44,355 nucleotides of DNA. Origin: an uncultured Pelagibacteraceae bacterium (lineage in GTDB: Bacteria; Pseudomonadota; Alphaproteobacteria; Pelagibacterales; Pelagibacteraceae). The DNA is taken from assembly GCA_902551215.1 (NCBI GenBank), contig CACDCI010000003.1, forward strand, positions 1 to 44,355, read 5' to 3'. The notes beneath the pieces were generated by a model. It saw only the letters and a list, made by a program, of their open reading frames with translations, had not been told where the DNA came from and ran no database searches. A program made the position numbers and the translations under genes. Below, piece by piece: positions 17,902-21,496 of the stretch. Numbering within the stretch: the first letter of the stretch is position 1; every line of letters starts with the position of its first letter.

Positions 17902-18693
17902 ATGAAAAAAATTTTAATAATAACAATGACAGTCATATTGCTTGCAATCAGTAATGTAAGTGCTGGAACTGATGGAGAAAATTCTCTATCAAAGAAAAAT
18001 CCAGGACAAACTAAAGATTGTTTTGAGAAAGTAAATAGAGGTATATTCGTTTTCAACCAAGCATTAGATGGAGCCGTTTTTGAGCCTCTAGCAAAAGGCT
18101 ATAGAAAACTTCCCGTGCCAATTAGAAGTGGTACTAGCAATGTTATAACCAATTTAACTAATCTGATAACAGTGCCTAATAATCTCTTACAAGGAGAATT
18201 TAAAAAAGCAGGTCAAAATACTTTAAGGTTTGCTGTAAATACAACTTTAGGTATTTTGGGAATATTTGACCCTGCATCAGGCTTAGGTTTTGATGAATTA
18301 GAAAAAGAAGATTATGGACAAACATTAGCAAGCTGGGGAGTTGGAGAAGGTTGTTATTTAGTTCTACCGGTATTAGGACCAACTACGGCAAGAGATGCAA
18401 TTGGCATGCTTGGTGGCACTATGGGTGGAGGAGACCCTTGGTATAATGTAACAGTAAAGAACGACACTCAATACTTCACAGATTTCGACTATTATGCTTC
18501 TAGAGCAACTACCGGAATAGATTTTAGAGCCAAAAATATTGAATCATTTGAAAATCTAGAAAAAAATTCAATGGATTTTTATTCATCTGTAAAAAGTTTA
18601 TATTTACAAGATAGAAAACAAAAGATTTCAAATTCCAAAAAGGTTATCGATGCCATGGATGACAGTGACTGGGAAGAAATAGAAACCAATTAA
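17902..18693 (+). CDS. mlaA: MlaA/VacJ family outer-membrane lipid asymmetry protein
   Basis: NRGIFVFNQALD, YRKLPVPIR, FAVNTTLGILGIFDPA, EDYGQTLASWGVGEGCYLVLPVLGPTTARDAIG motifs. Confidence 0.9.
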   Translation: MKKILIITMTVILLAISNVSAGTDGENSLSKKNPGQTKDCFEKVNRGIFVFNQALDGAVFEPLAKGYRKLPVPIRSGTSNVITNLTNLITVPNNLLQGEFKKAGQNTLRFAVNTTLGILGIFDPASGLGFDELEKEDYGQTLASWGVGEGCYLVLPVLGPTTARDAIGMLGGTMGGGDPWYNVTVKNDTQYFTDFDYYASRATTGIDFRAKNIESFENLEKNSMDFYSSVKSLYLQDRKQKISNSKKVIDAMDDSDWEEIETN

Positions 18694-18711
18694 ACTCATA
18701 CCATATCTCTT

Positions 18712-19314
18712 ATGAGTTTAAAAAAAATTTTATTTAAATTTTCTTTAATTTTAATTATTTTTTCTGTATTCACAGAAAAATCTTTTTCATTAGAGCCTAA
18801 AGATTTTGTTCAATCAGTAGTAGATCAAGCTTCATCAGTTTTAACTAAAAACTTTACAAAAGAGCAAAAAATAGAAAAACTAAAATCTATTGCAAGAGAA
18901 GCAGTCGATATTAGAGGTATAGGATATTATTCTTTAGGAGCCCATAGAAAAGCTTTGTCTGATGATAAAAAAAAAAAATACCTTGATATATTTGAAAAGT
19001 ATTTTTTAAAAAGTTTTTCAAGTAGATTGTCTGAGTACACAGACCCTAAAATTCGTGTTGATTCTGAAAAAAAATTGAATGAAAAATATACAATGGTATC
19101 AAGTACTTTATTGGCAACTGAAGAAAAACCAGAAGTTAAAATTGATTGGAGAATTGTTACCAAAAATCCAGATAAACCTTTAATTATAGACGTAGTAATT
19201 GAAGGTGTAAGTCTCGCAAAAGTTCAGAAGGAAGAGTTCAATTCTATTATTCAAAGCAATGACGGTGACATTAATGCTCTAATTGCAAGCTTAAAAGAGT
19301 TTATTAATAAATAA
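18712..19314 (+). CDS. mlaC: MlaC/Ttg2D family phospholipid-binding ABC transporter auxiliary protein
   Basis: Signal peptide, IRGIGYYSLGAHRKALSDDKKKKYLDIFEKYFLKSFSSRLSEY and VDVVIEGVSLAKVQKEEFNSIIQ patterns; directly follows mlaA. Confidence 0.85.
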   Translation: MSLKKILFKFSLILIIFSVFTEKSFSLEPKDFVQSVVDQASSVLTKNFTKEQKIEKLKSIAREAVDIRGIGYYSLGAHRKALSDDKKKKYLDIFEKYFLKSFSSRLSEYTDPKIRVDSEKKLNEKYTMVSSTLLATEEKPEVKIDWRIVTKNPDKPLIIDVVIEGVSLAKVQKEEFNSIIQSNDGDINALIASLKEFINK

Positions 19315-19321
19315 ATAGTTT

Positions 19322-19398
19322 TGGTGGGCCCGCCAGGACTCGAACCTGGGACCAATACATTATGAGTGTACTGCTCTAACCAACTGAGCTACAGGCCC
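19322..19398 (-). tRNA. tRNA with CAU anticodon (elongator Met, or Ile2 if lysidinylated)
   Basis: Minus strand GGGCCTGTAGCTCAGTTGGTTAGAGCAGTACACTCATAATGTATTGGTCCCAGGTTCGAGTCCTGGCGGGCCCACCA folds as a canonical cloverleaf with encoded CCA; lacks initiator GGG/CCC anticodon-stem signature. Confidence 0.93.
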
Positions 19399-19466
19399 TC
19401 ATTTATAAATAAAATCAATATATCAAATATTATTAACTGTCTACTAAGAGATATATAAAAAATTTA

Positions 19467-19541
19467 TGGTGGGCCGTGTTGGTTACGCTCCAACTACCCC
19501 TGCAATGTCAATGCAGTACTCTACTATTGAGCTAACGGCCC
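19467..19541 (-). tRNA. tRNA-Val (GAC) with non-canonical D- and T-loops
   Basis: Minus strand GGGCCGT TA GCTC AATAGTA GAGT A CTGCA TTGACAT TGCAG GGGTA GTTGG AGCGTAA CCAAC ACGGCCC ACCA; all four stems pair, CCA is encoded, anticodon GAC. Confidence 0.8.
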
Positions 19542-19566
19542 ATTAAATTTTTTTAAAAGCTCTAAC

Positions 19567-20787
19567 CTATTTTCTTTTATTAATAGAAAAAATGTTCATT
19601 TCTGGATTAGATGCAAAAAAAATTGCAATATTAAATCCGAATAATGTTATTCCATAATCATTAAAAAAAGAACCACTTGGTATCAAGGGGGTAAAAGTAA
19701 AAAAAATGTAAGTTAAACTTCCAATCTGAATATAATTAATTCTATTTAAATTACTTATAAATTTTGAAAAAATTAATTTATAGAAAATAAATAATATAAA
19801 AATTGAACCAAATAATCCATGCTCAGACAATAGTTCTACATAAATTTGATGTGGATGATTGCTACAAACATATTTATTTTTAGATATGTTTTTTTCATCT
19901 AATTTGACGCATGTTGCAACTCGATAATTTTTATTGCCTACTCCAAAAAACATATTATTTTTGAAAACTTGATAACCAGATTTATAAATGTCAAAATATA
20001 TTGTGTTTTGAGTGAGCAAAGATTTAACTTGATTTACATATCTTAGCTTAAAATATTGTGAATTTAAAATTATAGAAATAAAAAAAATTAATCCAATTAC
20101 AATAAATGTAATTTTATACTTGAGTTTATATTCTTTAAAAAAAGCATAAAAAGATACAATACCTAAAAAAGCTTTAATTAAGTTTGATCTTTCTCCAGTT
20201 AAAAAAATTGCAAAAAGAAAAAATATAGATAACAGTAAAATTTTATTTTTATGCTGGGTGGTAAATTTATTGTATAAAAAACCAATTAAAATTAAATAAA
20301 ATGCATTAATATAACCACCAACAATTGGCTCATCTTTAAAAAAACTTACAACTCTCCTGCCATATAGCTCACCATAACCAAGCATATTTCTTCCAGTGTA
20401 GCTTTCTAAAAAAATATCTATAGATACAAAAAAAATTATAATTAACCATATAAAAAAAACTTTATCAAAAAAAAATTTTTGATTAAAAAAGTAATTTACT
20501 GCAACAAATAGTATTATAATTCTAATAAAGCCAAAGTTTCTATAAATTCCTTCTGTTGGATCAATAGAGATTAAAGAATTAAATAATAAATAAAAATACA
20601 ACAAAAACAGATATTTCACAGCTTTATTTTTTAAAAAAGAAAATTCTCTAATATAAAAAATTAAAAACAAAAAAGATAAATCAATTAATAAAATGTTTAT
20701 TAATGAAATTGTAGAGCCTAGAATAATTGAAATTGGAAAAAAGGAAAATAAAACAATAAAATAGTTGTTTATAAATTTATTATACAT
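19567..20787 (-). CDS. O-antigen ligase/polymerase family membrane protein (WaaL/Wzy-like)
   Basis: Multi-TM protein with GVGNKNYR and SNHPHQIYVELLSEHGLFG (Wzy_C-type motif). ORF extends to 20859; ATG at 20787 avoids overlap with the upstream gene. Confidence 0.75.
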   Translation of the reverse strand: MYNKFINNYFIVLFSFFPISIILGSTISLINILLIDLSFLFLIFYIREFSFLKNKAVKYLFLLYFYLLFNSLISIDPTEGIYRNFGFIRIIILFVAVNYFFNQKFFFDKVFFIWLIIIFFVSIDIFLESYTGRNMLGYGELYGRRVVSFFKDEPIVGGYINAFYLILIGFLYNKFTTQHKNKILLLSIFFLFAIFLTGERSNLIKAFLGIVSFYAFFKEYKLKYKITFIVIGLIFFISIILNSQYFKLRYVNQVKSLLTQNTIYFDIYKSGYQVFKNNMFFGVGNKNYRVATCVKLDEKNISKNKYVCSNHPHQIYVELLSEHGLFGSIFILFIFYKLIFSKFISNLNRINYIQIGSLTYIFFTFTPLIPSGSFFNDYGITLFGFNIAIFFASNPEMNIFSINKRK

Positions 20788-20794
20788 AAAAAAA

Positions 20795-21496
20795 CTATAA
20801 ACTAAAATTACTGCAAATGATTCTTTTAGATTTATGAACAGTGTTTTGCATAAAGTCAATTATTTCAATATCTTGAAACATGGTTTTAAAATAATCTGGT
20901 CTTATTGTGTCAAAAATTAATTTTGTATCTTTGTTAAGTATTTTTTTAAAATAATCAAGGTATAAATTAAAATTGTAATGGTAATCTAAAGAATATAAAG
21001 AAATAATGAAATCAAATTTTTTTTCTGGAAATTGATTAAAATCAAAATCATAAATTTTAAAAGATTTTTTATTCATTCCATTTTTTATAAGAAAAAACTC
21101 CAATAATTTTAAATTATTATAAGCTTCTTTATTTTCATTATCCCATCCATAAATAACTTTTTTAGAAATATAATTTTTTTCAATTATCGAAAAAAAACAA
21201 TTTTTTGATTTTGAATTAATTATTAATTCTAACCCACACATTCCGCTTCCTATTGACAGAATATTCTTATTATCAAAATTCAAATTTTTTGCTAAAAGAT
21301 TATATTCACTCAACATAGACTCTAAATATTTACTTCCAATTAATTTTGGGGAAATAAAATATTTTGAGGCAAAATTAGTAAAAAAATATCTTCCTAATAT
21401 TTTTCTAACTCTTTTTAAGAATGGATTTAATAATTCAATTCTCTGCAATAAAATTAATTGAGCTATATCCCGATTCAAATGGATATTTTTTATCAT
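20795..21496 (-). CDS. Putative SAM-dependent methyltransferase
   Basis: NILSIGSGMCGLELII (motif I-like), FDFIISLYSLDYHYNFNLYLDYFKKILN (class I MTase arrangement). Substrate unknown. Confidence 0.6.
   Translation of the reverse strand: MIKNIHLNRDIAQLILLQRIELLNPFLKRVRKILGRYFFTNFASKYFISPKLIGSKYLESMLSEYNLLAKNLNFDNKNILSIGSGMCGLELIINSKSKNCFFSIIEKNYISKKVIYGWDNENKEAYNNLKLLEFFLIKNGMNKKSFKIYDFDFNQFPEKKFDFIISLYSLDYHYNFNLYLDYFKKILNKDTKLIFDTIRPDYFKTMFQDIEIIDFMQNTVHKSKRIICSNFSL

Follow-up and report, generated by a model that had tools for sequence, protein, structure and literature searches.

A conserved tRNA-Val(GAC) of Pelagibacteraceae with a putative alternative set of elbow contacts

The G18:psi55 and T54:A58 contacts of the tRNA elbow are regarded as near-universal: ordinarily, G18 is wedged between bases 57 and 58, where it bonds psi55, and U54:A58 closes the T-loop. 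ARAGORN called a tRNA-Val(GAC) gene with other bases at all four of these positions at 19467–19541, minus strand, of the window (the whole 44,355-nucleotide stretch of contig CACDCI010000003.1, from an uncultured Pelagibacteraceae bacterium, that was analyzed here). Is such a gene broken, does it serve a purpose other than translation, or does it encode a working tRNA whose elbow is built in another way? The features concerned are the following.

19467..19541, minus strand: tRNA-Val(GAC) gene with encoded CCA, A18:G55 and A54:U58, G19:C56 kept (ARAGORN, RF00005, fold, conservation)
19522..19528, minus strand: D-loop AATAGTA, positions 14–21, A18 replacing G18, G19 kept (sequence; A18 in all listed G55 tRNAs of the family)
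19483..19489, minus strand: T-loop AGCGTAA, positions 54–60 (A54, G55, C56, G57, U58) (sequence; A54-G55-C56-R57-U58 retained in variants of other genera)
19322..19398, minus strand: neighboring canonical tRNA with anticodon CAU, G18-G19 and T-loop TTCGAGT, serving as control (ARAGORN; RF00005, 72.7 bits)

The gene reads, segment by segment, GGGCCGT TA GCTC AATAGTA GAGT A CTGCA TTGACAT TGCAG GGGTA GTTGG AGCGTAA CCAAC ACGGCCC A CCA. It matched Rfam RF00005 over the whole model (1–71 of 71) at 53.6 bits (gathering score, 29), and its minimum-free-energy fold was the exact cloverleaf (−28.6 kcal/mol, z = −3.3), which no shuffle equalled. The anticodon GAC, U33, A37 and A73-CCA, as read from the sequence and by ARAGORN, all agree with its assignment as tRNA-Val(GAC). 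The original prediction, made from the DNA letters, had described perfect stems and an encoded CCA; the cloverleaf and the CCA are there, but 'perfect' is slightly generous, as the D-stem includes a G10:U25 wobble. Its two non-canonical loops, AATAGTA and AGCGTAA, were read correctly, as was the ordinary build of the adjacent tRNA(CAU).

Numbered by position, the D-loop is A14 A15 U16 A18 G19 U20 A21 and the T-loop is A54 G55 C56 G57 U58 A59 A60. The bases of G18:U/psi55 and U54:A58 are thus replaced by A18, G55, A54 and U58, and those of G19:C56 are present, as they are in every variant that we read. The proposed exchange of U54/A58 for A54/U58 is borne out by the sequence, and the target bases of TruB (U55) and of TrmA/TrmFO (U54) are indeed absent. 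The proposal that a single G stands in for G18-G19 was right in that G18 is gone, being A18 now, but G19 is retained; since only G18 is replaced, the outer elbow pair G19:C56 can form.

The window is AT-rich (22–33% GC per 2 kb) and comes from a small genome, of which 806 kb are assembled at 58.6% completeness; size, base composition and the genes present point to SAR11/Pelagibacteraceae. In 25 large window ORFs, 59% of the valine codons are GUU or GUC. A second tRNA-Val, whose presence the original prediction had proposed to check, does exist: a canonical tRNA-Val(UAC) is encoded besides tRNA-Val(GAC). Within 17902–21496 of the window, the two tRNA genes are flanked by an mlaA-mlaC gene pair on one side and an O-antigen-ligase-like gene on the other, with a methyltransferase gene after the ligase; many relatives also have mlaC-like sequence next to the tRNA genes, and few have the ligase there.

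The 75-nucleotide gene is 100% identical in 21 of the 26 other sampled genomes of the same genus. Two further genomes have variants that keep the switched elbow, one with an additional D-loop base (G097) and one with a different acceptor stem (G026). G105 and G109 have an ordinary tRNA-Val(GAC) with G18-G19 and the T-loop TTCRATT, and G131 (97% complete) is the only sampled genome of the genus in which neither search found a match to Val(GAC). In other genera, the switched variants have T-loops AGCGTAA, AGCATAA and AGCGTTA; their stems show compensatory changes and positions 57, 59 and 60 vary, while A18 and A54-G55-C56-R57-U58 are constant. A pattern restricted to this D-stem found Val(GAC) in 37 genomes of the family, 32 of them switched, five canonical and none mixed; the same pattern did not detect it in several complete genomes of other genera. 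Val(GAC) may be accessory at the family level, though it is nearly fixed in the genus. The D-loop-to-T-loop core of the window's genus recurs in another genus, in two genomes. In 385 genomes from the class, such a tRNA was seen, among the matches listed, in the window's genus only; the sole match from elsewhere (G270) was set aside, as it has G18 and is not called as a tRNA by ARAGORN.

The original prediction had held that conservation of the odd loops would speak for function and that an ordinary T-loop at this locus in relatives would point to error or decay. Both kinds of observation were made. The loops are conserved in the 21 identical copies, and the variants preserve A18 and A54-G55-C56-R57-U58; the first of these facts also upholds its view that the loops are not the product of random decay. 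Ordinary T-loops do occur in G105 and G109, but these homologs carry G18-G19 as well, which argues for a matched switch rather than decay. In G109 the canonical gene, like the window gene, adjoins tRNA(CAU), and these two Val genes share their acceptor stem, so that the locus looks orthologous in the two, with the elbow exchanged as a block.

How might the replaced bases fit together? In ordinary tRNAs, G18 is the D-loop base that inserts into the T-loop (PMC4810234). In UGNRA-type T-loops, or lonepair triloops, a loop G commonly contacts an A from outside to form a composite GNRA tetraloop (Barrick and Breaker, PMC2258182). G55 in place of U/psi55 would give the T-loop the G-N-R form of this motif (G55-C56-R57), and A18 in place of G18 would be the outside A that completes a composite GNRA-like fold with G55. 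The closing lone pair would be reversed from U54:A58 to A54:U58, with the outer pair G19:C56 retained. A G-N-R T-loop completed by A18 would explain why positions 18 and 55 change jointly and why C56, R57 and G19 are kept. An A54:U58 pair cannot have exactly the geometry of a standard U54:A58, and we infer its role as the closing pair, like the three-dimensional pairing as a whole; normal charging, decoding of GUU and GUC and independence from psi55 would be expected of such a molecule. We assign a probability of roughly 0.78 to the reading that the gene encodes a working elongator tRNA-Val(GAC) whose elbow would be an alternative, internally matched set of tertiary contacts; to judge from the sequence comparisons, it is rewired rather than broken.

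The resemblance to the UGNRA T-loop, or type R1 lonepair triloop, of riboswitches and other RNAs (PMC2258182) lies in the G at the second position, the G-N-R core and the externally supplied A. The differences are that the motif would here stand within a tRNA, with A18 as the putative outside base, and that the lone pair is A:U in the Val and His tRNAs. The window tRNA-Val, A-G-C-G-U, does not match the sequence U1-G2-N3-R4-A5, but a switched tRNA-Phe (TGCGA), with its U:A lone pair, and the tRNA-Val of G092 (TGCAA) match it in full.

A coupling of positions 18 and 55 is seen across the family in scans that presuppose a GCTC..GAG D-stem and in which related genomes are non-independent observations. 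In 147 family genomes, all listed G55 tRNAs have A18, these being Val(GAC), Phe(GAA) in two sequence types and a single tRNA whose anticodon is Thr(GGU), and the pattern search for A18 with U55 gave zero matches. The distinct family tRNAs that were fetched comprised 39 with G18:U55 and U54:A58, eight with A18:G55 and A54:U58, seven with A18:G55 and U54:A58, and one with T18:U55. The source genome itself has a tRNA-Phe(GAA) on contig C30 (L038:4368-4442) with D-loop AGGAGTA and T-loop TGCGAAT, that is, A18:G55 with U54:A58 kept. The tRNA-Val of G092 likewise combines A18:G55 with the old U54:A58, which indicates that the two switches can be acquired singly. The Thr(GGU)-type tRNA (G078:C1:1131490-1131541, plus strand; T-loop TGCAAGT, A18:G55) is the sole one of its kind listed in the 147 genomes.

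The same coupling extends beyond the family. When one genome per GTDB species was searched for G55 tRNAs with a D-loop of at least 8 nucleotides and a GCTC..GAG D-stem, at least 115 such tRNAs were found; among the matches listed, 104 of 115 have A18, most are Phe and Thr, and the taxa include Patescibacteria, Omnitrophota, Elusimicrobia, Mycoplasmataceae, Acidobacteria, DPANN archaea and others. Among the matches listed from IMG/VR phage sequences, A18 accompanies G55 in 117 of 123 tRNAs, compared with about 1 in 337 background U55 tRNAs. By sequence comparison, G55 thus covaries strongly with A18 in the family, the genome scan and the phage sequences, and about 5–10% of the G55 tRNAs outside the family do without A18. 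In the viral collection as a whole, 69 matches combine A18 with U55; in 20 of these, GG stands just upstream, and they may be G18-G19 loops. Positions 54 and 58 are coupled similarly: of 120 pattern matches with A54 on phage contigs, 92 have U58 (the other 28 loci have A58 in 27 cases and G58 in one), and U54 with U58 gave six matches, two of them callable as tRNAs. The double switch had 117 viral matches, those checked being mostly tRNA-Ile, with Val and His as well, and A54:U58 with an ordinary G18:U55 is common in phage tRNAs. As double, single 18:55, single 54:58 and canonical forms are all seen, all four combinations exist.

Evidence on function comes from a complete relative, G003, whose 33 tRNA-model matches include one tRNA-Phe, with A18:G55, and one tRNA-His, whose loops, AATAGTA and AGCGTAA, are identical to those of the window tRNA-Val(GAC). 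A gene for Leu(GAG) and an incomplete, CAU-like match are also among the 33. As G003 has no other decoder for Phe or His, the rewired elbow, judged from this gene set, must support charging, delivery and translocation there, and hence translation. The original prediction had supposed that elbow contacts would be lost, and had left open that the tRNA decodes poorly. The first supposition gives way to coupled changes, A18 with G55 and A54 with U58, with G19:C56 kept; the second sits badly with the use of the same elbow by the only tRNA-His, and of A18:G55 by the only tRNA-Phe, of this genome. As Val(UAC) is also encoded, tRNA-Val(GAC) itself need not be essential. G063 and G017 share this switched His T-loop, their acceptor stems showing compensatory differences; double-switched tRNA-His(GUG) genes that ARAGORN did not call lie at L092:2096-2169 and in L091 (minus strand, about 865–938). 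In the window's own genome, by contrast, tRNA-His is canonical (L038:4999-5073). The tRNA-His(GUG) of G003 (G003:C1:205065-205138; L745:116-189) was missed by ARAGORN even in this complete genome, and the tRNA sets of streamlined bacteria and phages may therefore be undercounted.

Among other explanations, the one that survives best is that the psi55 synthase TruB was lost in an ancestor of several genera, that U55 became dispensable, and that tRNAs drifted to A18:G55 because an unmodified G18:U55 is weaker. TruB (TIGR00431), which was detected in all 14 control genomes, was found in none of 16 genomes of the genus, nor in the members tested of seven further genera (g2, g3, g4, g6, g8, g10 and g14; some of the genomes outside the window's genus being incomplete), and most switched tRNAs of the family are in genera lacking it. 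It is present in g5, g7, g9 and g12. Yet g12 also has a switched Val; TruB-lacking genomes keep G18:U55 in most of their tRNAs; and the genera are not independent of each other. Many A18:G55 genomes of other phyla have TruB, and its loss as a general requirement for A18:G55 was rejected on that account. The distribution of TruB fits a relaxed dependence on psi55, although it does not make a rule, and we regard its loss as a possible but somewhat doubtful driver of the switch.

An origin from phages, by transfer of the tRNA gene or of its elbow by recombination, would concern the source of the elbow and leave its function unchanged. The same double-switched loops are found in phage tRNA-Val, -Ile and -His; among the 117 phage-contig stretches with the double-switch pattern, both Val(GAC) and Val(UAC) occur with AGCGTAA; the distribution of Val(GAC) across the family is patchy; and the core shared with two genomes of another genus would also be accounted for. 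Outside the elbow, however, the phage tRNA-Val are 75–77% identical to the window gene, compared with 87% for the canonical homolog from the same genus; the canonical G109 gene stands beside tRNA(CAU), as in the window; and a blastn search of 50,697 annotated phage records found no match to, and hence no relative of, tRNA-Val(GAC). We therefore consider a phage donor unlikely, and these comparisons favor a switching of the Val elbow in place.

That the gene encodes a specialized, non-translational tRNA (for cell-wall or lipid aminoacylation, for example), its loops weakening the use by EF-Tu or the ribosome, is very improbable. Loss of the D/T-loop consensus is a hallmark of the staphylococcal non-proteinogenic tRNA-Gly, to which the original prediction had likened this tRNA, and the canonical Val(UAC) is available as an alternative decoder. 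The likeness ends with the altered loop consensus in a bacterial tRNA, as the loops of tRNA-Val(GAC) are those of the sole decoding tRNA-His of G003, whose sole tRNA-Phe has A18:G55, both being needed for translation, and G19:C56 is retained. A decayed gene or assembly error, suggested by a model score that is low relative to most tRNAs of the genome, was rejected as practically negligible in view of the conservation across the genus (the identical gene in 21 other genomes), the compensatory stem changes in further genera and the paired rather than scattered substitutions.

The rewired tRNA-Val(GAC) shares with the canonical elbow (G18:psi55, G19:C56, T54:A58) the cloverleaf, anticodon loop, CCA, 7-nucleotide T-loop, G19:C56 and R57, and differs from it in A18:G55 and A54:U58 and in lacking U at the sites of psi55 and T54. 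Two eukaryotic tRNAs with A54:A58, initiator tRNA-Met and AGC-tRNA-Ala, resemble it in having A54 rather than U54 and a purine at 60, but they keep A58, and tRNA-Val(GAC) has U58 and a changed 18:55 as well; pairs of the A54:A58 type are reported to be absent from bacterial tRNAs (PMC7566577). The literature searched, largely open-access papers, yielded no report of a natural A18:G55 or a reversed 54:58 in bacterial tRNAs, so that novelty is provisional. A18 is not among the entries of a review of non-canonical natural tRNAs (PMC7609411), and the passages found of a paper on SAR11 tRNA signatures do not mention a switched elbow and state that its authors excluded sequences of unusual secondary structure (PMC3937112). 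As reported by Pan et al. 2006 (cited in PMC4810234), rapid translocation on the ribosome depends on the 18-55 pair.

We give even odds to a broader proposition: that a second elbow, needing neither psi55 nor T54, is maintained in bacteria and phages and arises from two separable switches at 18:55 (G:U to A:G) and 54:58 (U:A to A:U) in all four combinations; that the essential His and Phe tRNAs moved onto it alongside the loss of TruB in lineages like that of the window; and that G18:psi55 and T54:A58 would thus not be required in a working bacterial tRNA. A conserved, matched replacement in single-copy tRNAs is a natural experiment on what the elbow requires and on why psi55 is widespread.

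Two minor observations concern related tRNAs. The source genome has a second, divergent tRNA-Val(UAC) without an encoded CCA (contig C7:26198-26270; L041:69-142), which is possibly a duplicate or a remnant at an integration site. The viral loci L592–L710 have the T-loop ATCRTNN with G18:U55, and those read were mostly tRNA-Ile(GAU) and tRNA-Asn(GUU).
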